From Antedon bifida (taxonomy: Eukaryota > Echinodermata > Crinoidea > Comatulida > Antedonidae): a stretch of 64,000 nt of DNA. How positions within the stretch are numbered: position 1 is the first letter of the stretch; each line of letters starts with the position of its first letter. The position numbers and the translations under genes were made by a program. This document shows positions 1 to 47,875 of this stretch, in pieces. The stretch spans positions 24,819,001 to 24,883,000 of the forward strand of contig OY727099.1 of assembly GCA_963402885.1 (NCBI GenBank). The letters run 5' to 3'. Below the pieces are notes generated by a model that worked only from the letters and a program-made list of their open reading frames with translations, did no database searches and was not told the origin of the DNA.

Positions 1-3000
1 CAATCACCCTCCAGCACAAGTTTAGTTTTGTAATTGGCTAAATTAACAATTTAAATTTTGATTGTTTAGCTGTAAACGTTTCCTTTTACAATGGCGGTAC
101 GCAAGAATCTTTGCCAATTTCTGATATGAAATTCTTTACAATATTCTATTTTAAATGATCGGTATTCTAGATTGAATTTGTGAGTTATATTTAATTCACA
201 AGGGTGCATGTTTCTTTTCTTAGAATGGCATATCTAATTTACGATCTGAATATTTTAAAATTGTGATAAGGATAAACAGAAAGATAGGTAAAGAAACTGG
301 GGCATTGATTTGGTTGTTATAATTACATTTGTACTATAGATCTACATTAATTGTCATACGCAAATTATCATGACGTATTGAATATTCTTTAGCAAACAAT
401 ATAAACTGCTATCTTATAATAATCAACTGCTTAAAACCCCAGGAAAAACCCTAGAAATTTACATTTTCATCCACAAACAAATATTTACTAGTTCTCTAAC
501 TAGCAAAATAAGTAAGCAAATTAATTCTACAAAAAGTTGAATTTACAAAAATTGGCATATCAAGTATCTCTAAGTAAAAGACCCAAATTAAAATAAGCAA
601 GAAAATATTCTTCTAAATGTATTTCTCTGTATGTCAGAGTAATGTAGATATGTTTATTTTCCAAATTAATTCAAATTAAATCAAATTTTTGCAAGACTGT
701 AAAATAACTTTTTTTTCTCCAAAAATTACAACCAGCAAACAAATAGTTACCTGTGGCAAACATGGAAACTTTACAAGTTTGCTTAAGTGACGTTTGAGAG
801 ATTTTGATTAAATTGTTCAAACAAAACAGTCCTCTTTTCATTTAGTATACACTATAATTTTGTCTTGATAAAAGGTTTATATTGAGATATAATACATACA
901 GTAGGTATACATATCAGGTATCTCTCAAAAACTTGGTTTTTTTTTTTACCTACAGCATTGTCATTTTTTCAGTAATTTGCCTTTGGATTTATATTATTAT
1001 AAATATCTATTTTATCTAACATTATTCAGTGGATCCTCTGATATTTCTCTTGGTGTGTAGGATTGTTATCAAATTTCTACAAGTGACATTATCTTTATCT
1101 GGACACTTCTGGTTGTTCTCGTGCGTGGGATTGTTATCAACACCAGAAGGAGTCTCTTGTAATTAAAGTAAACTTCAACAAGTGACAAAACTTTACCTGT
1201 CTTCACGTTCTTTAGTAAAGTCATCAGTCATTTCTTGCGAATAAGTACAGTAATAAGTACAAGTTGACTGATAGGCGAGTAAAGTAGTGTTTGATTGACA
1301 GCTTTTTCGAATGTGCTGATTGATGGGATAGATAAGTGGTAAATGATTGGCAGCCGATTATATGTGCCTTGCGGTCTCGTTTACAACCGACAGATAAAAA
1401 ACATGCCGAAATTTTAAAACCACGCTGCCGAATTAATAGGTCCAAATTTATAATAATATAAGTTACAAAAATAAAAGAAAACTGAGGTCGCTGTGAAAAT
1501 TGATGTTCTGACCGTCCTACTTCAGGAATATAAAAAGGACAAAATCGATTTACAGCAAAATCTGATACTAGAGGCAAGATCACGTAGCATGATTGAAGTT
1601 ATACCATTGATTTTGTAAATAGTATCTAAAAAACTTCATCTATAAAATTGGTTTTTCTCGTATTTACACGTATGTGAAATTTGTCTGATTTTTGTAATAA
1701 AACTGAATTATATTAGACTTGATTAAGATCACATGTTTTATAGGAGAAGTAAAATAAATCAAATTTCTAATAATTTTGGAAGGTTTTACTTGAAAATGTA
1801 AACCTAGGTGCAATAAAAATCTGTGTTGTTGATATTATATTATATTTGATTTGATTAAGGTTTTCATTGTTGGAATTTTCTTCCATAGTAAATTTATGAA
1901 CTAGATTTTCTTCATAAATTCATATAATATGGACTGACTTTTCTATATATATATTCTTTTAAACAATTGGATGGAGTTATGACTCAACTGATACAATGTG
2001 AGGTATTTATTTATTTATTTATTTTTTTTTTTAAACACACTCTTGTTTATAACAAGACCAGCCAATTATGAGTGAACAAATATACCAATTAAAAAAAACA
2101 CTGATAAAAACATTAAACAAAATGACAAGTTTTTACAGTCTTACAACATCAAATAAATATCAACCAAACAAGCATAGGACTCCACATCTTTTTTTTTCTT
2201 GAACAATTTGTTTGGTTCTAAAGGTTCTACTGTATATTATCGCAGTAACAATATTTTTAAACTAGTGTTGTATAAATGAGTTTGATCTAGTTACTGAAAA
2301 TGCAAAAAGAAACACAAATGTAGTTTTACAAAAAGTCATTACAACTTAACAAGTATTGAATTTCATGATTTAAAACATTTGAATTTTTCTGCTTAACTTT
2401 TATGCTACATAAAATAGCAATTAAAGTGTATTTTCATAAAAATTCTGGTCAAGAAATAATCCATCCCTTCGAGTCAATGAACTGAACATCTAACTAAATG
2501 CGACGGACATCAGTGGACGTTAATTCTTTTGCAAGCATAATTAATATTTTTGTGAATAATTTCACACTTTTAAATTATGCATTTTTACTGTTCATACTTC
2601 TTAAATCTTTTTATTCTCCCTTGACTGCAGACTTTTATTAATGTTCTCGGTAATATTCATAAGTTAGCAACGAATGATTTAAATTATTTATTGGAAGATT
2701 ATGCTTACAGCCAACATGTCCTCAATATTTCGTACAACAAAAGAAATTTGGACACCAAAACTACATTTTCATATACAATTTGTTATAAAAAAAATAATTA
2801 AAAATCAAATTTAAAAACAAAAGGATTTTGTTTAGTAAATATACAAATCTTATTTTGTGGAGAGAAAAAAAACCCCAACCGCTGGGTGCCTTCCAACAAT
2901 TTTTAAATTTTTTGGAAAAAATTCCAGTTTTCGTGACTAGAATGGCATAACCTTATGTGATAGTTGTATATTTTTGTTTTTTTTCTTCACCATTACTTAG

Positions 3001-4324
3001 GCCTACTGTATGTTATTTTTTTTTCCTTCTTTTGTATTTAATATTTTGTTATATAATTATTTGTTATATTATTATTAGTTATTTTGAAGGATGCACCTTT
3101 GTACTATGTGTGCCACCCGGATCTAAAGGTGTAAATAAATGAAATGCATGGAATTCTGTCTTCAACAATTATATTTCCTTCACTTTAAACAAAGAAATAT
3201 TCAATGTCAAGGATTCGATATCTTTGCACGAATAATCTTTATTTGATTTCTTAAATTATGCAAAATATGAATTTTTCATTTTCCCTTGGCTATGAAATAT
3301 AGACTAAAAATATCATTAATATTAATACGATGTTATGAATAATGCAAAATATATATGACATATTAGACATTACATGAATCTATAAAATCTAAAATAACTA
3401 TTTTGATAAGTTAGGAAAAGACATGTATAAAAGTATAGGCGATGTTTTAACTTTTACAATAATCTAAATTAAACAAACGTCAAACTACAAAAATGAATAT
3501 AACTTTTTTTTAATATCGGTTTTTGATAGTTGCTTATAAACAAAAATGACAATGCAACTTAATTGTTACTAAAGTACAACCTGAAATAATTAACATTTTT
3601 ATTAGGAAATGTTCTCTTTAACTCTTTCAGTACCTATTTCTATAACAGATTATTAATTCCTAGCGTTTGGAAGCAATGGGTGACAAGTATATGACTTGTT
3701 TAATAATTAAGCAGGGCCGTGAAATGTGTAAACTCCAGCAGTCTACCGAGGTTAGCGTATTAATGGATATCGTTTTCTGATAGTCCCAACGAGACCTTTT
3801 CCATCTAACCTTTTCTGTCTATATTCATGTGATATTCATCGATTTTAATTTGAAACGAAAATTTTAGATTTATATTGAGGTATTCATTCTGACGAATAAC
3901 AAATCATATATTCAGATGCGCGTTTTTACAACTAACTGATTTATTGAGATTTAAAAACATTAATAGATCTATGGCCACTATATATTCACGATCACGAGAA
4001 GACAAGCATGGATCATATCTCTCGTCTGTTCATATTTATACTCTTCTGTGCAAGCTATGCTTTTTAAATGAACTCGTTCGATTATGAATATTATTACTTG
4101 TTAATTTTCCTGTTAGTATAATTAATTAAAATTGCTTAAAATTGATGAAGTTTATTTATTTGAACATTGGAATTTTAAATGGCAGTAGCTTTGGTCATCA
4201 GGCTAATGAAGAAAAGCACTTTAATTTCAATATCTAAGGAGAAATCCAATTAAAACAAATGTTAAAGTGTTTTTTCTGCTGATGATTTCAGAATTATATT
4301 CCATGAAGTAGGTTATTCTAGTAT

Positions 4325-4700
4325 AATGGTTGCCATTTTGTGGCCGTTCCATGCGGTAGCTTATTTACTGTATTTTCTATAATTATGGCCATTTTGTGTC
4401 GGTTTCATGCATGCAATGCAGTACTTATCTACTGCACTTTAATTAATAACAGCCATTTTGTGTCCGTTCCATGCATACAGTGCTGTAACTTATCTACTAC
4501 ACTTTAATTAATAACAGCCATTTTGTGTCTGCTCCATGCATACAGTGCTGTAACTTATCTACTACACTTTAATTAATAACAGCCATTTTGTGTCCGTTCC
4601 ATGCATACAGTGCTGTAACTTATCTACTACACTTTAATTAATAACAGCCATTTTGTGTCCGTTCCATGCATACAGTGCTGTAACTTATCTACTACATATT
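4325..4700. repeat. 65-bp tandem repeat
   Basis: About four clean copies plus two diverged leading copies. The anchor AGCCATTTTGTGTC recurs at 4451, 4516, 4581 and 4646, a constant 65-bp step. Units contain ATTAATTAATA-like and TGCATACAGTGC stretches. Confidence 0.9.
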
Positions 4701-5223
4701 CACTAATAACATTGTATCCATACAGTAAAAAATAATATAGAAATTATAAAATATTTTTTTATTCAACTAGACTCATAGATTATTCTGCAGGGTTGATGCT
4801 CTATAAATAAAATTTTTCTTGCTGGAACATTATAAAGAGTATTAGTTGATTGACTTCTTGTATTTTGTAATAAATTTGGTGGAAATAATATGGTCGAAAC
4901 GAGGGTTTTATAAAACTGAAAACTACAGAACCAGGTAACATTGGATACAGGTTACCATATACAACCAAACCAATTTACTCAACTCATTTAGTACATAGGA
5001 TTAACACGTCGAATCTATGACAGACTGCGATGGATAAATTATTCACAATGTTGACAGTTACACATTACAGTCACATGATGACGCTACAACATACCTCTCA
5101 AGTTTATAACTTATTGATGATTATAAATATGTCACTTTGTATCTTTCATCGCGTTTTTTATGAGGCAATTATTACTTAGGATTTCACATTTTATAATAAT
5201 GTTTTTGCTACGTTACTTTTTAA

Positions 5224-5428
5224 TCATCGTGGGTATTTAGGTGCAGCGACGACGATGATTTCGACATGATCGGTGATCACGTCCACAGTATCGTATCCCG
5301 TGTTGGCCAATGCGTCCTTGGGTATAACGGGCCTATATCGGTTCTTTTCACCTTGTGGGTACTTGGGAATTTAGTAACTGTCGCATTTATTTTATATTTC
5401 AATTCTTTGGTAGCCATATTAGGCTATT
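5224..5428. other. exon-like, GC-richer block, strand ambiguous
   Basis: This block is clearly richer in GC than its surroundings and is open on both strands in codon-aligned frames. On the minus strand it reads from about 5361 to a TGA at 5224-5226 (YRPVIPKDALANTGYDTV ... APKYPR). On the plus strand it reads from an acceptor-like ATTTAG at 5240 to TAA at 5428 (CSDDDDFDMIGDHV ... LVAILGY). At most one frame is real, because RNY-type codons open the mirrored frame. I recognise neither product. It could be the 3' exon of an unseen gene or an old fragment. Confidence 0.3.
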
Positions 5429-5841
5429 AAAGAAAGGATATAGAAGTGGATATTAAACAAATAAAAAAGTAGTCCCATTTGTTCAAAATAACAGCCAACT
5501 TCTATTTAAGAGAAACACCTATTAAGAGGAGACTTTGTTGGGTCCAGACAGCGGATGTCTTTCTTTAATAAAGTGTTATTTTAATGAATGCAGAGATTGA
5601 AAAAGATGGAAAAATAAAGATACAAATAACAGCACCAAATGTAATGTAAAACACTATTAATTATTAAGGATTTTTATTATATTATATATCTTTTTTTTGT
5701 AGAAAAATGTATCATTGAAACACTATGCGAATTTTGAAATTCTGAATTTCTATTATATTATCCTGCGAAACACTGATTATATTTATTAAGAATCTTTTAA
5801 TATTGTTTTTGTAGGGTTCTTTACTGATTCATGTTCCAGCT

Positions 5842-8800
5842 ATGAGTGGGCGAAGTATGGACCAAGTGCTTGATGTCTTACAACAAAACAATGGGCCAAT
5901 GGAGACGCGGGAAATAATAAAAGTTCTCGGTTTCCAAACGAAAAAAGAAGCCAATCAAATGTTGTACAAGATGCGGCAACGTGGCCAGATACAAAAAGTT
6001 TCAGAATCTCCACCTAAATGGGATGTAAAACAAGATGGAGTTAAAGAGAACAGGCCGGGTCAGAGTTCAGTGAGTTTTGGTGCTACGACAAACACGACAG
6101 AAGATGTTCATATAAGACGAAGTTCGTCCGGTTCGGATCGAGCTGATGGAGAGGTCTCCAGCAATGAAAGTAATGAAGAAAACAGTTCAAGTATCCCTCC
6201 AAACCCTACAACGGTTACTATGCAAGTTAACGATCAATTAAGCTGGAAACTCCTGTATTCATTATCGTCACAGACAGATTCAATACACGCCAACGAATTG
6301 GCTAAAGCTGTTGGCTTGCAGAGAAAAAAAGAAATAAATCCCACATTATTCAACATGCAAAGGCATGGACTTGTTAAAAAAGTAAAAGATTCCCCACCAT
6401 TGTGGGTGATCACACCTTCCGGGAGGAAGCAAGTGGCAGCAGATGGCAGCCCTCCCACTGGAGAACTTCCAACATCGTTAAGAAATGGGCCGTTAAATTT
6501 CAATAATGGCTTTAGTCAGAGAGCTGGTTCCATATCAGTATCAGTTGCTACTTCAAGTAGTGCTCTGCACAGCCATGGAAACAATAACGTAATAATTGCA
6601 AGAGGCAGTAATCAGTTGATTCACGATTCTATGGAGTCTCCAGAAGAAAGTATAGAACAAAAGATTCTAGAAGCACTCAGTACGGTTGATACGATATCCA
6701 CATCTGATTTAGTTCGTGCTGTTGGTCTGAACGTCTGTCGTGAAATCAATCCCACCGTGTATGGACTACAGAAGAAAGGCCTTGCTCGAAAAGTCAGTGA
6801 AAGCCCACCCACGTGGCAGATCACACCAGAAGGAAAGGCAACGGCAGAGGCAAAGTCTAATATGGCAGGACACCATATGGGCTCTGGTGGTCTTCTAACT
6901 GATGATATGTCAGTACCAATGGAAGTTGGAGAGATATCTATGGAAATTGATAAAGAACGCTTTGATTACACACAGAAGAATCCAATAAGCGCGCTGACCG
7001 AGTATGCACAATCTCGACAACTTCCACATGAGATTGCTCTTGTAAAAGAATGCGGACCATCGCATAATCCAAGGTAAGGGTTCCAGTTTAAACAATCCTT
7101 TCTTAAAAACAAAGCTTAATTTTGTTGCATTTGTGAAATGATGATGGTAAAACGAAATGGTCATTTAGTGTTAGATTGATTAGATTGTTGCGGAATATCC
7201 TGTCCATGTTTGTAAAGCTCTGTCTACACTATCAAACTTTATATGATAAAAAAATGTGATGTGCCCATATATGGACATGATGATGTCATATCACTACCGT
7301 ATTAGAGCACGTCACACTTTTTGATAGTGTAGACAGAGCTTTAGACATGGTTGCATAATTATTATTTCTCAACCCAGCCTCTATTTAACAAAGCAGAGCA
7401 TTAAATGTGTTTGCATGTGCCTGTCGTCAAATAACCATTTATTTGAAAATATACTGAAGTCTTGAGTGTTACTTTTAATACATCACATTAGTTGCAAAGT
7501 GATAACTGGTTTAATGGTGTTTTAGCACTTCAACCAGAATTCAGTCAACTCTCCCAATACCGGACACCTTCGGGCTGGCCTACTACTATGTCTGGTTTTC
7601 AAGAAAGTATTGTATTTGGAAATTTCTATTTTAATGGTAAAAATGAATGTTTGTACTTCAAGAAAAGTCTAGTATTGGCAGATTTTCCGGTTTTCATAGA
7701 GTCTGGTATTGGGACTGTATTTGAAACGTGCCCCATTTCTGATGCCAAACACCTGTAAATAATTTCAAACACTAATAACTGGTTATTTACTTGCAGAAAA
7801 CATTTACTTGAGAAACAGTCCCTATGCAACTCTACATTAATCCCCATACAATACATGTTGTGTGTGGATTACCGTATATAACACTTAGCATAACACTCCT
7901 GGCAGCAAAACATATATCCTATTTCCATCATTTCTTCACTGTATACTCTAATGTACTTAACCTGTCCCCAAGTACAAACCTCATTTCGTTGCAAAGACTA
8001 GTTGTTTAATTATGTACAGGCCTAGAGCTATTACAATTTCTTTTGTCTTGATCTCATCGAGTGAAAGCATAAATTTATATACATTAAATTACCATGTTGT
8101 TCTAAGAAATCTGTGTTAAATTGTTCTAGTAGACGTCAGTAGATTATAGATAACTACAGTACAAATTTAGTGCAGCCATCCATAATTATTATTAAAATTT
8201 ATTATTTATTTCCTTTGACTAAAAGTTGGATTTAAAAAAAAAATTATTTACCTGAAAAAAAAAATAAAGATGTCCTCCAAAAACATGAAAAATGAAGATT
8301 AATAAAATCAGACTTTAAATATAGTTATTTACTTCTGTAAAAAAAAAAAGAAAAAATTATTATTTCACTTATAAAAAGACAATCGAAATTGTTTAATTTT
8401 AACCAAACACCATTGTGATGATAATTTAAGTATTTTTCGCTTTAATTTACATTTTTTTCAGGTAAATCATTTTTTTTTTCTATTCCGTTTTTGGTCAACG
8501 TGAATATCTTTTACGTGATTAAAATGACATATTCAATGCAAAATTTGTAAAAAAAGTATTTTTAGGAGGAAAGTATATCTTTAATTTAAAGCTAAAAAAT
8601 AGTCAACCAGTATTTCAAGAGACATTCCAGTCAAAGTACGCAAAATTAAACGATGACATTTTTAGAATTAATTTGTTCCGATAGTTTTCAATTATTTTTC
8701 ATAAACATTTATAACATCCTCATTCACCTTTTAAACTTTAGATCGAAAAATAATTGTGTCTTTTTGATTTAGAAGGTAATACTGATAGGAAAATTATTGG

Positions 8801-11800
8801 TTCTGTTGGATTCTTTAAGATTTCGAAAAAAATTACTGCAATTCAGAAACCAGAACTTTAAAGCTTTGTCTACACTATCAAACTTTATGTGACAAAATGG
8901 ACATGATGATGTCATATCACTACCATATTCGGGACGATCACTACCATATTTGGGCACATCACACTTTTTCTGTCAAACTAGTTTGATAGTGTAAATAGAG
9001 CTTAAGGAATATACTTTCATGCTACACAATAAATAAGCATAATTTTTATGTTATCAGATTCACATATCGTGTCAAATTAGGAGGCAGAGTCTTTCCTCCG
9101 GCAGAACAAAAAAACAAGAAAGAGGCACGACGCGAAGCGGCAGATTATGCGTTGCGTATTCTCATGAAGGAGGGCATGTACAAGCCAAAACGAAATGGAC
9201 CCCCTGTTCTACAGGTAAGAATAATTGTGTTTTAAATTGTCTTATGTTTTTGTTTATAGCCGACGTCTGTCGTGAACGGCAATGTTATTTAGTTTTTACA
9301 TTCATCTGAATGATGAATGAAACTAAGCCAGGACTGTTTTTAAGCACCTTGATTGGTCCTAACATTGATCAAGGGCTTCTCTCGTCCAGTGCCCACCTTG
9401 ACCAGGGAAAATGCATGGGCCAATACGTCTGAGGCAGATACTAGTTCTTACTATTTATTCGTGAGGTATTATTTCGTTTTGTCAAGAAGTAAAATAAATG
9501 TTTTTTTCATTGGATTAAACAAATTTTCTGTTTACAAATTTATTATGTGTTTTTACAAATTGTCTTTCATATGTCTTGTTCCACGGTTCTGTTCCATGCT
9601 TTTGTTCCACGGTTCTGTTCCATGCTTTTGTTCCACGGTTCTGTTCAATGGCTCTATGTCGTTATTCCAGCAATATTTCATTTGGAATGGTTTAGTTGTA
9701 ATTACTTTTAATAATTTATGTACTTACATTTTTCAATTTGATTTTCTTACACGTTAGAAGCTTAAATAAGTTATCATCTTGTGAAATAATCACATCGTAA
9801 ATACTGTAGAGCAAATAAGTTCTTTTAATTTTGTCGCAATCCAGTTCTGTCCGTCACATTTTCACGGATATGACTCATTAAGCCGTGTCAAATTACCTAA
9901 GCTTTCTAATTTATTCATTGTTTAATCTTTTAATTATTCAAACAGGTAATTTCCAAATAAAAGAATCACTTCACATTCTCACGTTGTCAATCGTTTTTCA
10001 CGGACAGCTGTTGATGCATCTGACACCTTTATAGATTCAACGCTTTAATGTTCGGCCCTAGACTGTCTTTTGTGGACAAAATATTCAGCCACATGCCTCT
10101 ATCTACAACAGGCATATGTCGCGTGATTGAATCGTTTATCGACAATTGCGTATTTGAACTTTATTTTTTCCCAGATCATTAATATTTGGCAAATAAATAA
10201 TTAATAATGGCATTCAGTCCGTAGGGAATACGTAACTACCGTTTGCTATTACAGAACTCGTTTTTTACAATGTACAATATAAGATTTGAAGTATACCAAT
10301 TTACTATAAGCTGTTATATGAATAACGCAACAAGGTTATGGTTTGACACGGTATAGGTTCGCTGTTTATTATGAGCAACATACATTTTCAATAAATTTAA
10401 TCAATTTTTAAATACAAAAACATTTGCATTAATTTAAATTTTATCGTCTTAAAAAATCATTAATAAAAAATCACAATATTATTGAATAATTACCAAATTA
10501 CTGTCAGTGCTCAGTGAATAATAATAAACAATAAATATTAATTATTATTTTATTATGATTTATAGCAATTTCACCTGTATGAAGCTATGCTACAATGTAA
10601 AACAAGATTTTACGGTTCGTCACGGTGCAAGTCTATTAAATCAAATGTACAAATTGCATTAGGCAGTTCAATACATGCACTGTAAATCAAACATATTAAA
10701 ATAAATTGAATTAAGTTTACTATGTAAGAAACATTAATATGTGTTTCTTAATTTATTTAGTATCCAAAGAAAAAATACAGTTGAAAAGTACAAACAGATA
10801 CCAAGAGAGTTTTTAAGAGAAACTTTGCTCTTTGTGTTTTTATCAATACTTGTAACATGCTGTTCTAATTTTCTTTGTTTATCAGAACATTCAACTCGCT
10901 GAAAATTCCTTTTTAGTAAGCCTACGTAGACACATTCGAATTTCAGCCATCACCCGCATCTCTCCATCTGTTATTGTTTCATTTCATGTTTAGATTTCAC
11001 CATCTGAAACTCATTAAAATCGATCAGAAGTCTGTTTCACAAAATTATTTAATTGCATTATATTTACTATCATTTTTGTATAATCTTTTATTATTTCATT
11101 AATTATTACACCTTTGGCCTCCCATAGGAGTAGCAGCTGTCATATACTTGCAATAAAAAATAATATACATTAATAAGAGAAATGTTTATTTTAATCTTTG
11201 GGCAAATAGTTACAGATGACCTGGCAACAGTTGTACCTTAGTATTGATTGTGATAAAATATTCATTTCAGTATCAAATATATTTTTTATAAATCATATCA
11301 AAATATTTTTCTGAAAAACAATTTTCGCAATAATAAAAGAGTTTTAACAAACTGCGGTACTGAAAGCTAGGGAATTTGTCAAAGAAATTCTTATGATTAA
11401 TTTATTTCTAGTTCACATTCACTTTTTCTTGGAGAAATCTCATTCCGATTTGTCTATAGAAAATTGTTCTCACTTTTAGTATTGTTTTGTGGTTTTCCGG
11501 GAGGATAAGTTGGAATGACTTCAACGTATTGTTATTATGCTTCATGTATTATTGGAATTTAGCAGACAATTTTGCAAGACCCAATCCATCCCATGCACTA
11601 TGTTTTGAAGTTGTTAGCTGTTATTGGACAGATCCCAAAGTATGGTTTGTTCTAGGCTTGGTGTTGGTCTTAAGCTCTGTCTACACTATCAAACTTTATG
11701 TGACAACAAAATGTGATGTGCCCATATATGGACATGATGATGTCATATCACTACCATATTTGGGCATATCACTACCATATTTTGGCACATCCCACCAGTT

Positions 11801-14800
11801 TAATAGTGTAGACAGAGCTTGGGATGAAGTTGAAAGCTTCACAGACCTAAGACAGCATCTTGTAAAGATTCACTAACTATAAATATGAAACTATTACTAA
11901 CATTTTTTCTTGATTTTCATCATTTCAGCCGGTTGGGCCAAACTCAACTTTCTTTGACAAGATAGCTGGATTGGCTCATCAGAAATACAGCGACTTGGCA
12001 GCAGACATCCGAGAAAGTATTGGGGGTCGATCCGTAATCGCTTCCCTCATAATGCGTCGGGGCAACGATGATGATGGCGTGGTCGTTAGCTTAGGAACAG
12101 GTATGTTTATTTTACAATGACCCATCTTGTCAAAATTATTGGTGAGTTATCTCATTATATACTGTTGAATATATATTGACATGCATTTTTTTTAATGAAA
12201 ATGGGAAAACAAATATTGAATTATAATAGAAAAAACAATTTATTATGCAATTTGGATTCATCTTCTACATTTGATTGTCATGTTTGTTTCAAATTGTAAT
12301 CATTTCAGAATGTGTACGCACAGCAGAATTTTATTATATATTATCGGACATTTTATTTTTCTTCAAGTTATTTTTATATTTGATTATAAAAAAACATATT
12401 GTTCTCCTGTCATTCTCCCAATGGATAAATGTGATTTATTTTTTTATGTTTTTGTATTATTAATGTTATTTTTATGCTTGTTGCTTTGGAAAAATGAATT
12501 GTATTATAGTGACATGTGTATTTTAGAATTTGTGAGATTGTTACATAACGTGGCATAGATTAATGTTTTCTTTTATATTTTAATATCGCAAATAACAAGC
12601 TTACAGGTAGAATTTTATCACAAAATGTAACTTTATTTTCGCCATTTTAAATTCAATACAGTAGTAGCTAAATTTTTTAAAGCAGGTTAAGTTAAATTAC
12701 AAAAACTGTCCTCTATTTTCTTATGTCATTCTTTGACCTTGAAACTTGTTCCGTTTCCTTTTGTACAATTCTTCTGTTGGTGCTCAAAAATTGAAACTTT
12801 ATCACATATCTTAATAACAAAACCTAAAATATTAATATTTCAGTTAGGTCCCATGACATCTTGTTCTTATTTTTCATACAATTTTTCCTCATGAGTATTT
12901 GAAACGCTAGATGCTGACGTGTTCATATAATGAAACATCACACTGTACCTGAGGTGTCTGTAAGATTAACCGAAATAGGTCCACTCAATGCTAACCAGCA
13001 GTAACAGAAATTTACATTCCGGCATTAAATTTTGATGACATGATATTAGCATTGATGTGTTGAAATACGATATAAGGAAGCCGAGTACTTAACATTAATA
13101 GAAGCCAACTCACACCATTAACTTTGCATATGTTTAATTTATTTATTTGTCAAATATTTTTAGAGGCACATAGAAAATGAACATTTGAAATGGCAAAACA
13201 AGAGAATTAGTTCAAACTATCATTGAACAGGGTACACAAGTTCAATTGACTAGCCCAGACTGGTTTTAATACACGCTTGCCCGAACTGGTTTTAATTACA
13301 CGTTTGCCCGGATTAGACACATTGCCCAGACTGGTTAAATTGTTACACTCTTGCCCAGACTGATTTTAGTACACACTCTTGCCCAGACTGGTTTTATTAC
13401 ACACTTGCCCAGACTGGTTTTATTATAAGTTTGCCCAGACTGGTTTTATTATAAGCTTGCCCAGACTGGTTAAATTGTTATATGCTTGCCCGAATTAATT
13501 TTGTTACATGCTTGCCCAGACTGGTTTTAGTACACACACTTGCCCAGACTGATTTTAGTACACACTTGCCCAGACTGATTTTAGTATACACTTTCCCAGA
13601 CTGATTTTAGTACACACTTGCCCAGACTGATGTTCATTTCACACTTTCCCAGACTGGTTTTATTTGTGTGTTCCCAGGCTGGTTTAATTACTTGGATGTC
13701 AGACTGGTTTTATTACATGCTTGCCCAAATTTATTTAAACATACTTGCCCATATTGTTTTTTTTTTTTTTAAATAGATGTTCGCCCAGTTAAGCTGCTGC
13801 TACTGAGTATTAATTGTTATTGCATTTGAATTTTAAATGTAAAAACAACTTGCTGTATTCAACCACTTACATAAGTATGTATGTATTAGGCAAACAAAAC
13901 CATAAATATATTATGTCTTTTCAGTAGTAAAGGCAAAACTAATTAACAATCACAAGAACTGAAATTAATCACTTATGCGACGAATGATAAATGTATTCTG
14001 TAAATAGTTGAACAGAAATGTTTGATCTGATTTGTACTTTACCTAATTTGACTATAAATCAAATTAAGTAATTCCACGGAGAACATTAACCTAAAATTGT
14101 GCTCAACAAATGTTACATTTTGCGAAACAAATACAATTACCTCCATTATTATTTGTGATAACTTACAAAACAAATTCTAGCTAGATTTATAGTTTCTAGT
14201 TAAAAGCCTGCGCCTAGGTTTATTTCCTTTTTTTTAGTATATTTACAAAAAAAATTAAGACAGATTATTACATATGGGTTCTGTTTTGTTAAGATGGATT
14301 GAAAACAAGGATTATCCTTGCTTGTGGAAACTATAAAGCTTTGTCTACACTATCAAACTAGTTTGACCAAAAAGTGTGATGTGCCCAAATGTGGTAGTTA
14401 TTTGCTTAAATATGGTAGTGATATGACATCATCATCTCCATATATGGGCACATCAGATTTTTTTGTCACATAAAGTTTGATAGTGTAAACAGAGCTTTAC
14501 TCATTAAGATGTGATACTAGTGGTAGTCACTGAGTTGTCATTAATTGTCCTGAGAGGTCCTCTAAGGACCCTCGGTAGCCACAGTGCATCATCTACCAGG
14601 ATAAGCACACTGAGAGACAATCTCTTATTATTTTTAAATAGTGTACAAAGTTAAAATATAATAGTTAATTAAATCTCAACCGTAATAGTAATAGTAAATA
14701 ACGATTATTTTATTTACCTGACGTTTCGCCAACTATATAATTAACTATTATATTTTAATTGGAATACCAACCGAATGAATCTTTTTAATGAGTGTACAAA

Positions 14801-17800
14801 GTTGTTTATCATGCACATGCATTTTAATATTCAGGACCAACAGCTTTACGTTCTATCCAAAGGATGAGACAGTGAGGGAAGCATCTTTCCCTAAATATAC
14901 ATAAAAGTCCAGTTTTTGGATAAAAACAAATTATCTTAAATTTAACAAAAACATTTAATTTTAGACTACCATTTATCATATGATTTTAGTACGCGACATA
15001 CAAACAAGAAAAACATTCCAAAGCGCTGTACGTACAAACTGAGAAAAGAAACCTAAGTTATATAATCAAACTTTGAATAAACAAATTCAGGCTGTAATTT
15101 GTGTAATAAAATAAATCTGGGAATTATATATTGATAATGCGATCCTAGCGACAAGCACACATTTAACCTCAGACGTCATAAAACCCAGCCATTCCATTCT
15201 CCATAATGCCGTCATAAATGAGATCGACTTTTCGGAGCATCAAATGTATGTAATGAATTCACGTTAATAGTAATTGCGGAGTTAATTTAGTATAAGGGAT
15301 AACACGGCATGAAGGAATACGCTTGCTTTAGGCAGATTATGAAGGCTATTTGGATACTTAAACTGGGCCTTTAGTTTCATCGAGAATAATTATCAGTTTG
15401 GTGATTATGTTATCTGGATCAACTGAATTACATTTACACTATTTTACCCTCCAATGCATTAATATCGTTTAGAAGATTCATTTGAAATTTCCGCACGTTT
15501 TGATGTATATTATCCTCAAGTAAAAGATTGTATATATTTCTCGCTCTTAACTAGTTTAACTTTTGACCATAAAAAACACATTCATTTTTGTGTTTAAAAA
15601 AGGTAAAATTATTTTACCAACGTTTGAATAACTAGCAAAGATAGCAACCCCAAATTGAGTAAACTGTTTTAAAATTTAGTTTAAATCTGTCCCAGTAAAA
15701 TTCATTTTGATATCCCATTACCCACAATCCCTGATTACTCACCCTCCATACTCCTACTCTCCTTGGTGGTTCAAATGTAGTTTAAAACATTTCCAGTACA
15801 ATTCATTTTGATATCCCATTGCCCACAATCGCTGACCGCTCACTCTCCCCACCCCTGCTCTACGGAGTGGTTCAAATGTAGTTATTCCCAGTACAATTCT
15901 GATCTTTTTGATCACCCAAATGAAAAATGTGTATGACAAAACAACCATACAAATTTTACAATATCTTATTTATATAGTAACTTATGTTGAAGTTCTTTGA
16001 GAGAGTTTTCTCACATGTGCCTAGAATTGACAACAACTTTATGTCCCATTTGAAGGATGAGACAATAGGCATCCTGCTACACAACGCACATGTAGGTTAC
16101 AAGCATATGCCACCTCACGCACAAGTCCGATTCGTTGCCATTGTACCATCTTCAATCCTTTATTAAAGTTTACAATGGAAATCTGTCATATCTGCATTCT
16201 TGATGGTGGCTGTTCACAAGTTCACCAACATAGATGAATTATCACTAACTCTTTAATTAGTTATTAAAAAAAACATGTTTAAAATATGTTGTTTTAGTTT
16301 CATTGTTGCATGTCTTGTCGCATGTCCCAAATGTCTCCATAACTCACGTCAGCTGTTTGTATTCTTTATTGCAGCCTTTCTTTCCAACGATTTCTATCAA
16401 GCGAGAAAGTTCAATTATAGTTTCCAGATTGTATATAGCAAACATTATTATACAGTTGATTGTCTGTGCTGTATCATCATATGTAAAACACATGTGACGC
16501 CTGTATCATAGTCCCTAACCAAACCCTTAACTTAACCTTCCTTGATACAGGCACAACATGTAATACATATGAGATGCTGTATTTAGGGAATTGCCTGTAA
16601 TACATAGTATTATCATAATATGTAGATACAGCACTATTAGAGAAAGAGATTATTAAAAGAGAAATATTTTTTTCATGAAGTGCTTTTCGAATAAACATTT
16701 TGAAACTTTGACCTTTGTTGTGTAGTGATATGATAAAACTTAAGAAGTTTATCATATGAAATAAAAATATATAATGATTTTTACTGAATTTGAAACAGAG
16801 ACATCCTAGTAAAAATAATGCGTTATTAATGGTATTTGCAGGTAATCGATGTGTGACCGGCGATATGCTTAGCATGGAAGGTTTAACTGTTAACGATTCG
16901 CACGCAGAGATCATTACGAGACGAGCATTCATCAGGTAAGGCCAACATCCTACAGGGAATAACTGACCAATCAGCAGCTGTCTTATATAAGTGTTAGGGA
17001 TTTCCCTAGGGTCCATTTCTAAAGGGACACATTGACTGTTTAAATTATCAAGTAATTGCAAATAATTTTTAGATATTCTAGACTCATTAGCTGTGACAAT
17101 ATATCATTGATAATCAAACCAATGAATTAACAGTACCCCTGTGAAATTTTTTTAATGAATAAGGTTCGTTTTATCCGGTTTATATTCTTCATTTATTTTA
17201 ATCATAAAGTTTGATAATTGATTTTCAAAAATGACCAAACCATCATAAATTTGCAACCTATATTTGTCTTTTTATTTCTTGACAATCGGAATAATTTAAA
17301 GAATGAAACAACCTACATTTTTACCTGATTGTTTTTTTAGGTTTTTTTTCAAAATTCTAATAGATTTTTGTCCATTAGAGTTGATTTATTATTTGATATA
17401 TAGTGATTTGTTCTGGTTGTGAACTTAACAATGAATCTTATATTCTGAAAAAAATAGTTGGATAATAAGTTTTCAATCATTAAAATGTGGAATAAAAATG
17501 TTCATCTCATGCATGCTGTATCTAACAGCATGGATTCACTACCAACCAACCAACTTTTTATCTTTATCATTAAAATTGAATTGTTTTTTAACAATCCATG
17601 CAATGTGCAAAGTATGTACATGGGACCAACGGCTTTGCATTCTAATCACCACAAATTGACTTCTTCATCAATACTTCTATGAATGGATGATTAGGTGGGA
17701 ACATGAACGATAGTCATACCCAGTACCGTTTTGATCATACGATTACGATCAGGAAAAAACCTCACGAAGGTCAAAAGGATCCTTTAATAGAGGTCATACC

Positions 17801-19834
17801 ATCTCTTACGGTCTTTAGCTAAATCTCTATGTCGCTCAGTGTTTTAAGCTTAAAAAATACTATACGTCATATCTCATATAGTCTGTTTAAAACATATTAT
17901 TTTTTCAGGTTCTTGTACAATGAATTACGCTCATACCAGCAGGACCCGGAACAATCTATTTTTTGCCGGAAGCCCTCTGGAAAACTGGGAGTAAACGATG
18001 ACGTCACGTTTCATTTATATATTAGTACAGCACCTTGTGGAGACGGCTCGCAATTTTCTCGCTCAGACACCGGACCAAACGTAGAAGGTCCTCCGGCCGA
18101 CCTAGATTTCAGTGGTAAAGCGGAACACGTGGCGACACTTGAGAAGAGGAATCAAGGTTTATTGCGAACAAAGCTAGAGACAGGTATGAATATCAGACAT
18201 TTACTACTACTATTACAATACCCCTATTATGAAATGGTATAACCTATGAAAAATAAACTCAAGCTTTTGGATGATGACTATGCATACATAAATGCCAGTA
18301 TGCAGTCGTCCTCATACAGTGTTGATTTAAATATTCACTTGTTCGACACTTATCAAATTATAAACCAGGTTTAGTTTAGGTCCCAAAACTACACATAACA
18401 CTATTCTGTATTGCAATTAAAAACATACAGTATAATATATATATGTTGATATAAAGTTATAAAGCGGTACACCACGTGTATATATAGTTCTGAAAAGATC
18501 TGTTTCTTGACGTTTCGATCAATACACTTTGATCATCCTCAGGAGTAAGAATGGCACAAACCTTCAAACAATATAATTATAATATAGTATAGAACTAAAA
18601 TCTATTTGGAAATTGATATATTATACGATTTCTTTCCTCTTTTTTAAAGGAGAGGGAACCAATCCTATTGAAGGAGAGTACATGCAGACATGGGATGGCA
18701 TTAACAGAGGAGAGCGTCTACGCACGATGTCATGTAGTGACAAAATTGCAAGATGGAATGTTCTTGGACTACAGGGGGCGCTATTGAGCCACTTTCTCGA
18801 TCCAATATATATGAGTTCACTTACACTTGGTAAGATATTTTTTTGATATTTTTTTTTATGTGCAGTATAAACAGGCCCCTATCAATATTACTCAATATTT
18901 TCCCCCGAATAAATGTTTACTTAATTATACGCTTTATCTTCTTAGGCACACTTTACCATCATGGCCATTTATCACGAGCGGTTTGTTGTCGTTTACAAAA
19001 TGTTCACGAGACTAAAAACCTGACAACGTGCTTACCACCTACTTACCGTGTCAGCCACCCGCTACTTGGACATGTCACGAAGATTGAGACTCAAAGAACC
19101 ACCGAAAAAACTAAACAATACAGCATCAACTGGTTCTCAGGATGCGCAAAAGCCGAGGTCACAGATGGTACTAAAGGAAGGTCGGTGAACTAAACATTTT
19201 TGTTTAGTTTAAAGCTTTGTCTACACTATCAAACTTGTTTGACAAAAAAAGTGTGCCCAAATATGGTTGTGGTATGACATCATCATGTCCATATATGGGC
19301 ACATCACATTTTTTGTCACATAAAGTTTGATAGTGTAGACAAGTCTTAAGATAATTGTGAACAGTGATCAATATTTAAATGATAACTGCTGTCCCTTCCT
19401 CCTAAAAAACAAAGCTGCATACCCACATGATTATTTGCATGAAAATCCAAGTTTGAGGGTGGGCTAATTGAGGGTGTGCTGAGGTGGGCATCAGTATAGT
19501 TTTATCAGTAATTAAAACGGGATAAATTAAGTATACCTTTTCTTATTTTAAGCCCAAAACTAATCATTCTTTTGTTTCTGTCAGATGCACGGATGAGAAG
19601 GTGCGATCTGTTCTTTGTAAAGCGGAGTTATTCAACGAGTTCCGCAAAACTTGTGTCTGTTTCAACCGAAACGACCTTCTGGAAACAGACTGGTATTTAG
19701 AAGCTAAACGATTGGCAACTGATTTTCAATTAGCAAAACAACATCTGAATGAGTGCTTCGTCGAAGGTGGCTACGGATATTGGCTAGAAAAACCGTTCGA
19801 CGAAAAGCATTTTAAGTACCAGTTTAGCTCTTAA
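5842..19834 (+). CDS. ADAR: ADAR-type double-stranded-RNA adenosine deaminase (three Z-alpha, one dsRBD, deaminase)
   Basis: Predicted to convert adenosine to inosine in dsRNA. Coding exons: 5842-7073, 9058-9214, 11929-12100, 16842-16935, 17909-18183, 18650-18829, 18946-19180, 19585-19834. All introns are GT-AG and frames join to 864 aa. Three winged-helix Z-alpha-like domains lie at about residues 1-65, 130-192 and 268-330. Each keeps the family Asn, the Pro-Pro pair and the Trp (N38/P57-P58/W60; N166/P185-P186/W188; N303/P322-P323/W325). One dsRBD (about 380-450) is split by intron 1. The deaminase domain has the HAE motif (H541, E543), PCGDG (C595) and a third zinc ligand C672 in an RTMSCSDK motif, matching human ADAR1 H910/E912/C966/C1036. 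The first exon starts at an acceptor (5814) and is open in frame upstream of the ATG, so a further 5' coding exon is possible. Vertebrate ADAR1 has two Z domains and three dsRBDs, so this layout differs. Introns carry five copies of the palindromic MITE. Confidence 0.95.
7215..7341 (+). mobile_element. palindromic MITE, family 1, copy 1 (ADAR intron 1)
   Basis: The inverted ends AAGCTCTGTCTACACT and AGTGTAGACAGAGCTT enclose the shared core (GATGTGCCCATATATG, GATGATGTCATATCAC). TA lies on the left and TA follows the right end. Confidence 0.9.
7545..7725. mobile_element. small inverted-repeat element in ADAR intron 1
   Basis: CCCAATACCGGACAC at the left is matched in reverse by GAGTCTGGTATTGGG at the right, with a unique middle. 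It looks like a degraded non-autonomous DNA element. It lies within a chance open frame at 7492-7758, which is not a gene. Confidence 0.4.
8265..8584. mobile_element. MITE family 2 (TTAA-type), copy 1 (ADAR intron 1)
   Basis: Diverged copy: AAAGATGTCCTCC at the left and GGAGGAAAGTATATCTTTAA at the right, with the family's internal ACATGAAAAATGAAGATTAA stretch. A fragment of another copy abuts it at 8210-8262. Confidence 0.7.
8861..9003 (+). mobile_element. palindromic MITE, family 1, copy 2 (ADAR intron 1)
   Basis: Full-length copy ending about 54 bases before the acceptor of ADAR exon 2, so it may crowd the branch-point region. Confidence 0.9.
9568..9655. repeat. 26-bp tandem repeat, three copies
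   Basis: The phrase TTCCACGGTTCTGTTCCATG recurs three times in ADAR intron 2. Nothing else was seen in 9215-11670 apart from AT-rich sequence. Confidence 0.85.
11672..11820 (+). mobile_element. palindromic MITE, family 1, copy 3 (ADAR intron 2)
   Basis: Same orientation as copies 1 and 2; ends about 108 bases before ADAR exon 3. The left flank is TTAAGC and no clear TA follows on the right. Confidence 0.9.
13255..13785. repeat. 24-30 bp minisatellite (TTGCCCAGACTGG)
   Basis: About twenty imperfect copies of TTGCCCAGACTGGTTTTATT in ADAR intron 3. Spacing varies because of indels in the ACAC/ATTA part. Confidence 0.9.
14336..14497 (-). mobile_element. palindromic MITE, family 1, copy 4 (ADAR intron 3)
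   Basis: Reverse-orientation copy with TA on both sides. It has an extra copy of the internal ATATGGTAGTGAT motif. Confidence 0.9.
14645..14765. repeat. inverted repeat around TGACGTTTCG
   Basis: AAATATAATAGTTAATTAA is mirrored by TTAACTATTATATTTT about 80 bases on, with TGACGTTTCGCC between. A similar CTTGACGTTTCGATC ... CCTCAGGAG phrase occurs at 18510-18545 in intron 5. Both look like transposon ends of an unidentified family. Confidence 0.4.
15690..15915. repeat. about 115-bp tandem duplication
   Basis: Two copies of a block running from CCCAGTAAAATTC through TTGATATCCCATT to GTGGTTCAAATGTAG, in ADAR intron 3. The following 900 bases to exon 4 show nothing else. Confidence 0.85.
19212..19347 (-). 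mobile_element. palindromic MITE, family 1, copy 5 (ADAR intron 7)
   Basis: Starts 31 bases after the donor of ADAR exon 7. Its right end has a small indel (GACAAGTCTT). Confidence 0.9.
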
Positions 19835-30772: not shown

Positions 30773-33700
30773 AGAGAAGAAGCATGAATTATTATTCTTG
30801 ATTTGAATTACAAATTTTTTTGTCGCCTACCGCGCTGTTAACGATGTTTATACCGTTAAGTAATTAGACACCGAAACAACATGATAGTGAAGATTGTATT
30901 TGACAATTAACAAGTCTTACATAACATTTTAGTTTTTTATAATTGAAGTTTGATACCTTAAATTCTCTTAAATTAAAAATACACTTTAAATAATGTTGAA
31001 ACATGAATGTTATTTTCTATTTAATGTCAAAACTAATAAAAAAAAAAAACTAATAAAAAAAACTAAACAAATTATAAATCTGATCTGACTAAATTTTATT
31101 TATAAATCCGATATTTGATTTCTTTGTATAATGCTAGATGCCTGCCCTAGGATAGTTAAATTGATCCAATAGATTTTGTGTACATGAATTAATTTGTTTT
31201 GAATTTAAATAGCGTATGCATTCGTGTATAGTACATCTAATGGGTTTGTATTTATAGTAGATAGACCATCAGAATAAATTTATTTATAAATCCAACATTT
31301 GACCTTCTTATACTGTATAATAATTGTTACTATACTTTGATGTTTTAAATTTGAATAGTACATGAAGATTCAATGCTACTGTCAAAATCATTAATATATG
31401 GATGTTTTTTGTTTTTTTTGTATTTCTTTTACATCAGTATATCATTTCATTTTTTTATTAATCTTTTTTTGACAGCATTTGTACATTTATTACTAATCTA
31501 ATACTTGGATAATAGAATTCTAAGCAATCTTGTTCACAATGAATATTATAATTAATCAAATACCACAGGTGCTTATTATGTATATTAAGTTATTTGTGAA
31601 AGCAGGTCACAGGGTCAAAAGTAATAAAGTATAGTATTCTATTACTGATGCGGATGCTCAAATTCATTCCAGCAATAACGATGTGACATTCGAAATAGAC
31701 CGAGTAATAAAAACTACTATCAAATCATTTCTTTGATGATGTAATTACAGATATGGATATGTCAATTTTCTCAATTCTATGTACAACAAATTTGTGAGAT
31801 AACCATGTAATTAGCTTTTACAAATTAGATAAACAATTTATATTAGGTGAATGAAATGTTATATATATATTAACATTTTAGAAGTTTAAGAAATATTAAA
31901 AGTTTAGTTTATGCGAATAGTGACCATTGCGAATTGGGGATTTCAGTGGCCTTTAACACTGGATGTGATGGGTTCAAATCCCAGTTTAATCCCATTTGAT
32001 TATGAGGGGTTTTGTGTGTTTAGCACTCTACTCTAAAGCAACAAGATATAGTGGTCTTGTGGTATGGTGTCAGGTTAATAACCTGGCAGTCATGAGTTCA
32101 AATCTCAATTGTGGCATTTAATTAATAGATTGGTTAGCAATCTTCCAGAATAGGGGAAGTACCTAAAGAAACAAGATCAGTGGTCTTGTGGTATGGTGCC
32201 ATGCTAATAACTCAAAGATTTTAGGTTTAAATCTCAATTGTACAATTCACTTAATAGTCATTCATTTAAAAAGAAATAATATTCATTCGTATTTAGTGAA
32301 GGTAATTCTTCAACTGTTTTGTAGGAGAAAATGATATTCAGGTGGTCTAGGCAAATTCAGGTTAGGGAGGGGAAAGGGTTAAAAGGTTACACATAACACT
32401 TGTGTAATAGACAGTGTTAAAATAAAATTTCAAGAGCATACCTAATCATAATCTCTCCACAATTAACACAATCAGCTGCGATGATGTCATCAAGTTCGTT
32501 TCGTAGTTGATCATGCAGGTCTCGTCTTGAGACAACGTCTGGCGTCGACCCACCTGACAGATTAGCCGAAGACGTAGCTGGCTGCGTAGCAAAGGTGACA
32601 AGGCGACGCTGTAGCTCCTCTACTTTCGATTTTTTGCTCTCGCTGAGATTCGGCAAAACCTGGAAAAGTAAATCATACAATGACAGAAGTAGGAAAAAAT
32701 TAATTTAGAAATATTAAATAAAGATTAATTTATCAAAATATCGCATACATGATGACAAGCTCTTAAAAGAAATTGAAAGATACATGTGTTATTTTTTTTC
32801 TATTTTTTAAAGTGTATTTGGAATGGCATAATAATAATAATTGCAGTGGTCTATATTTGGAGTGGTCTATATTTGAAGTGGTCTATATTTAGAGTAGTCT
32901 ATATTTGTAATGGTCTATATTTGGTGTGGTCTATATTTGGAGTGGGCTATATTTAGAGTGGTCTATATTTGGAGTGGTCTATATTTGGAGTGGTCTATAT
33001 TTGAAGTGGTCTATATTTAGAGTAGTCTATATTTGGAGTGGTCTATATTTGGAGTGGGCTATATTTGGAGTGGTCTATATTTGGTGTGGTCTATATTTGG
33101 AGTGGGCTATATTTGGAGTGGTCTATATTTAGAGTGGGCTATATTTAGAGTGGGCTATATTTGTTGTTTTCTATATTTGGAGTTGTCTATATTTGGAGTT
33201 GTCTATATTTGGAGTTTTCTATATTTGGAGTTGTATATATTTGGAGTTTTCTATATTTGGAGTTGTCTATATTTAGAGTTGTCTATATTTAGAGTTGTCT
33301 ATATTTGGAGTTGTCTATATTTGGAGTTTTCTATATTTGGAGTTGTCTATATTTAGATTTATAGTGATCTATATTTAGAGTTGCCTATAGTATAATTGGA
33401 ATTATCTATTGTTGGACTTGTCTGTAATTTGAGTAATCTCTAATTTTAGTGATCTTAACTCGACCGATACAGTATATAATTGGAGTGAACTCTAATTGGA
33501 AGTGGTCTATAATTGGAGTAGTGTTTAATTGGACCAGCCTTTAATTTGAGTGGTCAATAAATGGAGCAACACTATGATACATTATACAGAAACAAGTAGA
33601 TTATTTTTAGTTCATGCATTGGCCTGAAACTTAAATTATGTTCCTGAACAAACCTATATGTAATAGACTACAGACCTACATAAATTAGCAATTATAATGA

Positions 33701-36700
33701 ATACTTGTGACAGAATAAAGACATACGAAACCTTGGAAATATATACATTACCCAATCAATCAATTAGACACATAAAAAAGAAATGCAAAATCATTGAATT
33801 ATAGACTAATTTAAGCAGATTGACAAATGTAATGTGACAGTAGTAGGTTTGGTGCGACGAATGTGAAATATCTGATTCATCATTTAATATCATATTATGA
33901 TTCATAATTGAAGGCATACATTTAATGGAGAAACATAATGATCAATTTATCGATAAATTAATTCATAAATTATGATGGCATACATACACTTTGTGGCACG
34001 CGTCATATTCAGTGTATATTTGTTGGGAATTTATTAATTAGTTTTAAAACTGTGGCGTGTGAAGCTCTGTCTACACTATCAAACTAGTTTGGCAAAAAAA
34101 GTGTGATGTGCCCAAACATGGTAGTGATATGCTCAAATATGGTAGTGATATGCTCAAATATGATAGTGACATGACATCATCATGTCCATATATAGGCACA
34201 TCACATCTTTTTTTGTCACATAAAGTTTGATAGTGCAGACAGAACTTTATAAATGTATGATACAGTAGATGTCTAGGCCCAGAATTTATTTATAGCAATT
34301 TCTGTAAATTACTGTAGTACATATATACATGTTGGTAAAAGTAATTTTAGAAATTCTAACAGCTTAGATACATTTTTTTATTTTGGAATATTTATTTTAT
34401 ATACCTCTGCAATAAGACAATCACTGTGAAACATGTGTTGGCAGGGAAACAGATAAAACGTTCTGCTTAGAAGTGGAAAGCTGCACGTTGAACACTTCTG
34501 CTGTGGGCCTACGATGCCATACCTAGCAAAATAGAAAACAAAGTTAGAATAATCTTTCTTTATGTTGACATGGAGACCTTGGTGGGCTGGATACGAAATT
34601 TGGAAAAAGGTAGGGGTTGGCATTAAAGATATATTGTCTCCCTGAAAAAATAATTTTTGTTGTTGAATATGCCATTTTAATGTCACATAATAGTTATCTA
34701 CTTTGACCACAAATTTAATTTTCTCTCTTTTTGTATTAATTAGAGAATACATCTTTAACAAACATCAAACACTTTTCTCTTTGAATTTAGCCCGGGAGGT
34801 GGGATTATATTTGAGCATGGTTTTTTACTTTGTCATTCACGGTAGTATAAAAATAAAAATATTTTATTTTAAGGTGTGTATATATTAATTAATAGAGAGT
34901 AACTTAATATTTTCAAATATTGACAAGTAATGTTCTGTCTACACTACCAAACTAGTTTGACAAAAAATGTTATGTGCCCATATATGGACTTAATGATGTC
35001 ATATACCATATTTAGGAATTCCACTACCATATTTGGGCACATCACACATTTTTTTCAAACTAGTTTGATAGTGTAGACAGAGCTTTAAAAATATAAAAAG
35101 ATGACCGACTTGTTCCTCATTTCTTGAATGTCAGATCTGATAGATCGAGCGCTCTCAGTGGCATCTTCCATTTCCTGCTTCAGGGTCTCTATGTGCTGAT
35201 TATATTCAGCAAGTGAATTGCAGATTGCTTCCTATCAAAATTACAAAGTTAAAATATTTGAACGTTACGCATCTCATCATGATTTGAAACGACAGATTGT
35301 AAACTGGTTTAATGTGACAACTTGATATTCAATTATAAAAAGATAAAAGATATAGTACTTGATACTCATGACCTAGACATGACCTTTTGCATATAATTAT
35401 GGACCTAAATAAAAAAGACATCAATCATGGTAATGGTATGTTAGAACAGGGATTTTCCATAAAAAAAATATGTTTTTAGGCTAATTTCTTTGCAACAGCC
35501 TTCAATCAAACAAGCGTTCAGACATGTTTACACATTAAATATTCAGGTCACATAGAGGTCAAAGATAGCTGTATATTTATAGGACAGATCAGCTTAGTTT
35601 AGTTCTATACAATTTCTACATCCAGCCTCATACATACATATGGGATCCTCCTCTCCTACATCGTAGAACTGGAGTCGAAAACCTATTCGGCACCAAATAG
35701 CCTACTAAGGTGATCGTTAAGATTTTTCTTTGATTGTGTAATGGCTTTGGCTTGCCTGATTTCCATACTTAAAATACGAGAGATTTTAATCCAAGGATCA
35801 CGATAGTACCGTCTTGTTGGAACATGAGGGCAGGAATCCATGCTTTGTTACATTTTGCCAAATGTAAAAATCATGAATTGCTCATTCTTCTGATATATAC
35901 TTTAATATTGACTGTCGCTGTGCTAATTAGCACCTTACCTTGAAATGGTCAATAGTTACAAAGTCTGGGAAGAAAGGAAGTATATCTTCAATCTTCAACA
36001 GTTCACTCTCTTGTAAGAATTCCATGGCACGTTTTATGTTGTTCTCTTTCTCTACGACGTGCCGTGCGATGCGTAACCACAGTTTCTTCTTCAATTCCTC
36101 ATCATCTTCAGGCTTGTTTGCATTCAGCTTTGCAAGGTCAACATCGACCTACATTAAAGAAAAAAGTTTTTTTATTATAATCATTCAATGGTCAACATTT
36201 TCTTCAATCAATGTATTACTACAGTGTGTGTAAGTGTAGGAAATGCCCAAAAGTGTAGGAAATGGCCAAAAGTAGGAAATGCCCAAATGTAAGAATATGT
36301 TCAAAAGTGTAGGAAATGCCCAAAAGTGTAGGAAATGCCCAAATGTAAGAATATGTTCAAAAGTGTAGGAAATCATGCCCAAAAGTAGGAAATTCCAAAA
36401 TGCAAAAAATGCCCAAAAGTAAGGGAGCGTGCCCAAATGTTTTTACTCCGTTTAACTTGTTGTAACGCAACTAGTTTAACGATTTACCGTTATATGCAAG
36501 CTAATTTAAATGGGGTTGGGCGTGTTCAGTGAGGCATATCAAGCCCTCCGTTTACTAGCTACTATGCTGTTATGATCACTCCATTGTTTAACGCGTAATT
36601 AACGGGAGACCGGACATGCCGTTCAGTGTTGCGTAACGATGATTCCAACGCGTTATTAACAGTCCTTGTTATGGTATGTTGCGTGAAATCCTATGATGAC

Positions 36701-47838: not shown

Positions 47839-47875
47839 TGTTCCTTTCTTGTTGGTGCATTCCTCTGCAAAATAA

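Follow-up and report, generated by a model that had tools for sequence, protein, structure and literature searches.

An ADAR1-Type Gene With Three Z Domains and One Double-Stranded RNA-Binding Domain in the Crinoid Antedon bifida: a Further Genome for a Published Invertebrate Layout

Introduction

ADAR1-like proteins have been defined by any number of ZB and dsRB domains and one AD domain (Grice and Degnan, 2015; PMC4323055), which are referred to here as Z domains, double-stranded RNA-binding domains (dsRBDs), and the deaminase domain. Several layouts are reported in that source. Vertebrate ADAR1 has two Z domains and three dsRBDs, and the vertebrate layout is also found in the sponge Oscarella. 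ADAR1 of the sea urchin Strongylocentrotus purpuratus and of the sponge Amphimedon queenslandica comprises three Z domains, one dsRBD, and one deaminase domain; those of Nematostella and Sycon have two Z domains and one dsRBD, and the remaining non-deuterostome eumetazoans covered there have one of each. A single Z domain and a single dsRBD have also been reported for squid ADAR1 (PMC10278661). The present report is focused on a gene of the crinoid Antedon bifida, located in a stretch of 64,000 nucleotides (GenBank assembly GCA_963402885.1, contig OY727099.1, positions 24,819,001 to 24,883,000 of the forward strand; hereafter the window). The gene is very probably an ADAR1 orthologue, i.e., an adenosine-to-inosine editing enzyme, presumably expressed and active, with the invertebrate layout of three Z domains, one dsRBD, and a deaminase.

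An earlier note on this DNA had correctly given the vertebrate layout (PMC4323055) and, by setting the crinoid gene against it, had implied that the combination of three Z domains and one dsRBD was novel. The novelty is not borne out, because the identical layout is reported in sea urchin and sponge (PMC4323055). A survey of ADAR layouts, by which the note itself had proposed to judge its claim, thus finds the three-Z layout in print elsewhere and leaves an ordinary invertebrate ADAR1. On the published layouts (PMC4323055, PMC10278661), invertebrate ADAR1 usually carries a single dsRBD, and three Z domains have precedent; the layout described below is new only as one further genome. Since Grice and Degnan (2015; PMC4323055) favour an ancestral ADAR1 with one Z domain, the set of three Z domains may have been acquired on more than one occasion. 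The phrase "three Zalpha" in PMC10523160 was also considered as a possible precedent and was set aside, as it refers there to three Z-alpha-domain proteins and not to three domains within one protein; a term search of PMC11942513 brought up no statement on invertebrates.

Domain Content and Gene Structure

Three Z domains followed by one dsRBD and one deaminase domain are encoded by the gene; the observation holds and lies well beyond what chance would give. In a Pfam search of the spliced 864-residue product, z-alpha was matched in three stretches (E = 8.1e-31), dsrm in one stretch (aa 381-446; E = 2.7e-13, 50.7 bits), and A_deamin as a single domain (aa 517-852; E = 1.4e-101), and these are the only families above the Pfam cut-offs. 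Each Z domain was additionally excised and scored singly against the z-alpha cut-off of 21 bits. Z domain 1 (aa 1-67; 5842..6042, + strand) scores 37.8 bits and, on alignment with human Z-alpha, has Asn38, Leu41, Tyr42, Pro57-Pro58, and Trp60. Z domain 2 (aa 129-197; 6226..6432, +) scores 44.3 bits and, aligned with human Z-beta and Z-alpha, has Asn166, Leu169, Phe170 replacing Tyr, Pro-Pro, and Trp188. Z domain 3 (aa 269-337; 6646..6852, +) scores 40.8 bits and shows Asn303, Val306 replacing Leu, Tyr307, Pro-Pro, and Trp325 in the alignment. The linkers between the Z domains span approximately 50-75 residues. When the Z domains were compared with human Z-alpha or Z-beta, all 1000 shuffles stayed below the observed alignment score in each of the six pairings. 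The dsRBD scores 55.4 bits when excised and scored alone.

The gene model comprises eight coding exons on the + strand (5842-19834), and its seven introns are all GT-AG, with the reading frame kept throughout. Coding exon 1, the first identified (5842..7073), lies in an open frame (5815-7077) that holds the ATG at 5842 and the three winged-helix domains; it also carries the 5′ half of the dsRBD (from aa 381; 6982..7073, assigned by Pfam dsrm on the spliced product) and ends at the donor GTAAGG at 7074. The dsRBD continues to about 9163 with its 3′ half in coding exon 2 (9058..9214), where the splice model is accompanied by a Pfam half-match in one frame, and joining 5842-7073 to 9058-9214 by splicing makes the one dsRBD whole. 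The other exons of the splice model are devoted to the deaminase: a linker and the beginning of the domain in exon 3 (11929..12100; A_deamin piece), the catalytic HAE with His541 and Glu543 in exon 4 (16842..16935; residue positions), PCGD with Cys595 in exon 5 (17909..18183), the GEG loop and CSDK with Cys672 in exon 6 (18650..18829; both exons also from the A_deamin search and residue positions), a further deaminase portion in exon 7 (18946..19180), and the C-terminus with a TAA stop in exon 8 (19585..19834; PDB alignment for the last two).

The domain reading of the earlier note is therefore confirmed: all three Z domains with their Asn, Pro-Pro, and Trp pass the Pfam cut-off singly, one dsRBD precedes the deaminase in the 864-residue product, and that length is matched exactly by splicing the eight exons. 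Its span of 5842..9214 holds for the Z domains and the dsRBD but not for the deaminase, which is located downstream, from 11929 to 19834. The note had also raised the possibility of additional dsRBD exons upstream, and none was detected on the + strand at 1-5849 in a Pfam scan of three stop-masked frames. The same scan, extended to three frames each of 6901-9302 and 9001-18992 and to exon 1 in its own frame, detected no second dsRBD, the only dsrm signals being the two halves of the one described above; the scan would not reveal dsRBD exons on the minus strand, in the remaining two frames of about 5850-6900, or of very divergent sequence.

An exon upstream of the ATG exon, either untranslated or encoding a short N-terminal extension, is likely, because the splice-acceptor-like sequence TTTTTGTAG ends at 5814, just ahead of the exon bearing ATG 5842. 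Start-codon contexts were judged by the Kozak rule: the bases at -3 and +4 are G and A for Met1, A and C for Met127 (directly ahead of Z domain 2), and T and G for Met264 (directly ahead of Z domain 3). Based on these contexts, shorter isoforms may initiate at Met127.

ADAR1 Identity and Catalytic Residues

Among PDB structures, the dsRBD-deaminase part is matched best by human ADAR1 (9b83), at 490.9 bits summed over four stretches, three of which are dsRBDs; human ADAR2 (6vff) reaches 291.7 bits. Taken by itself, the deaminase stretch scores 358.4 bits with human ADAR1, and the ADAR2 deaminase chain 1zy7 scores 276.6 bits. The single dsRBD scores 54.7 bits with dsRBD3 of human ADAR1, 52.1 bits with dsRBD1, and 25.2 bits with dsRBD2. 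The catalytic HAE, PCG, and second Cys positions are filled by His541, Glu543, Cys595, and Cys672, in agreement with the human ADAR1 alignment. At least one z-alpha domain, at least one dsRBD, one A_deamin domain of the ADAR1 type, and the catalytic residues are thus all found in the product, as in the ADAR1-like definition. By sequence, the domains, the splice frame, the catalytic residues, and the ADAR1 type of the deaminase are established, whereas we infer that the enzyme is expressed and active, that the individual domains bind Z-RNA, and that labour is divided among them.

Other identities were considered. The ADAR2 layout, with two dsRBDs and no Z domain, is ruled out by the one dsRBD and three Z domains, and the gene is not a mis-split ADAR2, because the same genome carries an ADAR2-like gene of its own, which has two dsRBDs. 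ZBP1 and PKZ combine Z domains with a RHIM or kinase domain; these identities are ruled out as well, the product showing only z-alpha, dsrm, and A_deamin above the Pfam cut-offs.

Other Z-alpha and Deaminase Genes in the Genome

The assembly that contains the window measures 315.6 Mb and consists of 27 contigs. In a six-frame search of this whole genome, z-alpha gave three matches, all within coding exon 1 of ADAR1. Because the matches are confined to this exon, the search gave no indication of a ZBP1- or PKZ-like gene, although an intron-split or very divergent domain could escape it. The search for the deaminase family gave 16 matches, which correspond by position to about six loci: the present gene (five matches), the ADAR2-like gene at C1:31.50 Mb (two), three similar loci at C1:22.87 (L006), C9:21.64 (L007), and C1:23.45 Mb (L008; two each), and an ADAD-like locus, with one exon read, at C7:32.21 Mb (L010; three). 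By the z-alpha and deaminase searches together, Z domains are confined to the ADAR1 paralogue.

The three similar loci are presumably ADAT1-like. Two of them, L006 and L007, were read, and no dsrm or z-alpha match was found in the exon scanned. Their frames are near-identical by eye, which suggests a recent duplication of a tRNA-type deaminase. In the ADAD-like exon of L010 (1405-1809), MSDSDK stands where ADAR1 has MSCSDK, and the second zinc Cys is accordingly missing.

Z-Contact Residues and a Probable Mechanism

A conserved set of Asn, Leu, Tyr, and Trp is described in Z-alpha domains (PMC11293857; PMC13136903), and replacement of Tyr by Ile is reported to abolish specific Z-DNA binding, whereas replacement by Phe reduces affinity (PMC11293857); PMC8775963 supplied no residue numbers. 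Domain 1 has all four residues and is the best candidate Z binder. Three of the four are kept in domain 2, whose Z binding is probably weakened because Phe replaces Tyr, and likewise three in domain 3, which has Val for Leu and is probably competent.

In the mechanism considered most likely, the single dsRBD and the RNA contacts of the deaminase itself would hold long double-stranded RNA, the substrates probably being mainly paired repeat transcripts. In "almost all" of the profiled animals, editing is reported to fall primarily on repeats, which account for 86% of sites in S. purpuratus (PMC9989829). Where this RNA is left-handed, the Z domains would capture or stabilise it and thereby raise local residence, this Z-guided step being inferred, and the deaminase would then flip out and deaminate adenosines in clusters.

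An extension of this mechanism, tentative and on balance improbable, is that all three Z domains bind Z-RNA, jointly on one molecule, in a genome with no further z-alpha gene in evidence; the Z-binding state that vertebrate Z-beta later left, through the loss of its Tyr, would then persist in domains 2 and 3, and Z-RNA-guided editing would proceed without a competitor of the ZBP1 or PKZ type. Several points weigh against the ADAR1 mechanism as a whole. A predicted Z-alpha domain is no proof of Z conversion (PMC11298590). In the present protein, Z binding is judged from residues only, and domains 2 and 3 each deviate at one of the four key positions. Structural support is not provided by AlphaFold, whose model of domain 2 from a three-row alignment was not used because of a mean predicted local distance difference test score of 62.8 and a predicted template modelling score of 0.26. 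Moreover, the gene model is derived from genomic DNA alone and does not include the exon upstream of 5815. The interest of the animal lies in the natural comparison offered by three Z domains, one dsRBD, and no other z-alpha gene by one whole-genome search: it could show what role Z-RNA reading by ADAR1 has where ZBP1 and PKZ are absent and need no restraining, and also whether Z-beta-like domains formerly bound Z-RNA.

Alternative Readings

A first alternative, which we consider doubtful, places domains 2 and 3 in the lineage of vertebrate Z-beta, with only domain 1 being Z-alpha-like, and assigns domains 2 and 3 a structural, dimerising, or G-quadruplex role; G-quadruplex specificity has been reported for human Z-beta (PMC13136903). 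Human Z-beta (1xmk) scores 30.6 bits with domain 2 and 26.9 bits with domain 3, versus 24.0 and 24.2 bits for the best isolated human Z-alpha chain, and domain 1 has the reverse preference (24.6 bits with Z-alpha, 3irq, and 14.5 bits with Z-beta). Domains 2 and 3 are also the closest pair, with 45% identity, versus 34% and 32% with domain 1. However, human Z-alpha and Z-beta were joined with each other in a five-sequence maximum-likelihood tree (79% of 200 bootstraps), and Z-beta was not placed with domains 2 and 3; the tree comprises five rows and at most 72 aligned columns, and its next split reaches 49% of 200 bootstraps. Furthermore, an aromatic residue is kept (Tyr in domain 3, Phe in domain 2) where human Z-beta has Ile. 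A one-to-one match of the domains to Z-alpha and Z-beta, suggested by the bit scores, is without support in this tree, and no such correspondence is claimed.

The earlier note had read the protein as a multi-Z sensor, i.e., mainly a sensor or sink of Z-RNA whose recognition rests on the Z domains and not on the dsRBD. This is possible but unlikely. Three Z domains do stand against one dsRBD, and because no other z-alpha gene was found in the genome search, the protein may be the only Z-alpha reader of the animal. Nevertheless, the deaminase is complete and the dsRBD intact by the scores given above, Tyr is replaced by Phe in domain 2, and one dsRBD is normal in invertebrate ADAR1s, including the single-Z enzyme of squid (PMC4323055, PMC10278661), so that the single dsRBD gives no sign of reliance on Z-form binding. 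A further alternative, in which the gene is decayed or ADAD-like and does not edit, could cite the ADAD layout of one dsRBD and a deaminase (PMC4323055). It is extremely improbable, as the Z domains are present, the frame is unbroken, all four catalytic positions are kept, and the genome has its separate ADAD-like locus on C7. An ADAR1 orthologue, most likely active in editing, remains the preferred identity.

Other Features of the Window

Two pieces resembling miniature inverted-repeat transposable elements (MITEs), read by eye with inverted ends (about AGCTCTGTCTACACTATCAAACT), lie at about 7215-7345 and 8862-9004 in the ADAR1 intron 7074-9057. Related 21-bp repeats around ATCACTACCATAT are found at 8916, 11744, 34103, 43359, 49716, and 60468. 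As a speculation, transcribed pairs of the MITE-like or 21-bp repeats could themselves be editing substrates.

Downstream of ADAR1, a RING-type exon (34378-34764, minus strand) matches VPS18 in PDB (8dit chain C, 52.9 bits), and a VPS18 gene is probably located there on the minus strand; an open reading frame at 47542-47883 (minus strand), considered as its possible start, matched nothing. The window additionally contains a tRNA-Ile with anticodon AAT (32045-32116, + strand) and a 184-bp satellite array (61597-64000) of 13.1 copies with 97% match, which reaches the window end.

Comparison With Known ADAR1 Enzymes

The crinoid gene shares three Z domains, one dsRBD, and one deaminase domain with ADAR1 of S. 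purpuratus, the comparison being one of published layout and not residue by residue, and with that of A. queenslandica, which belongs to a distant phylum (PMC4323055). A single dsRBD is likewise found in squid ADAR1, although the squid enzyme carries only one Z domain together with a long serine-rich stretch, and its Z domain and dsRBD are together in exon 2, whereas the crinoid dsRBD is split over two exons (PMC10278661). The order of Z domains, dsRBD, and ADAR1-type deaminase is also that of human ADAR1 p150 (9b83, 1qbj, 1xmk). The human protein, however, has two Z domains and three dsRBDs where the crinoid gene has three and one, and human Z-beta has Ile where Tyr stands in crinoid domains 1 and 3 and Phe in domain 2.

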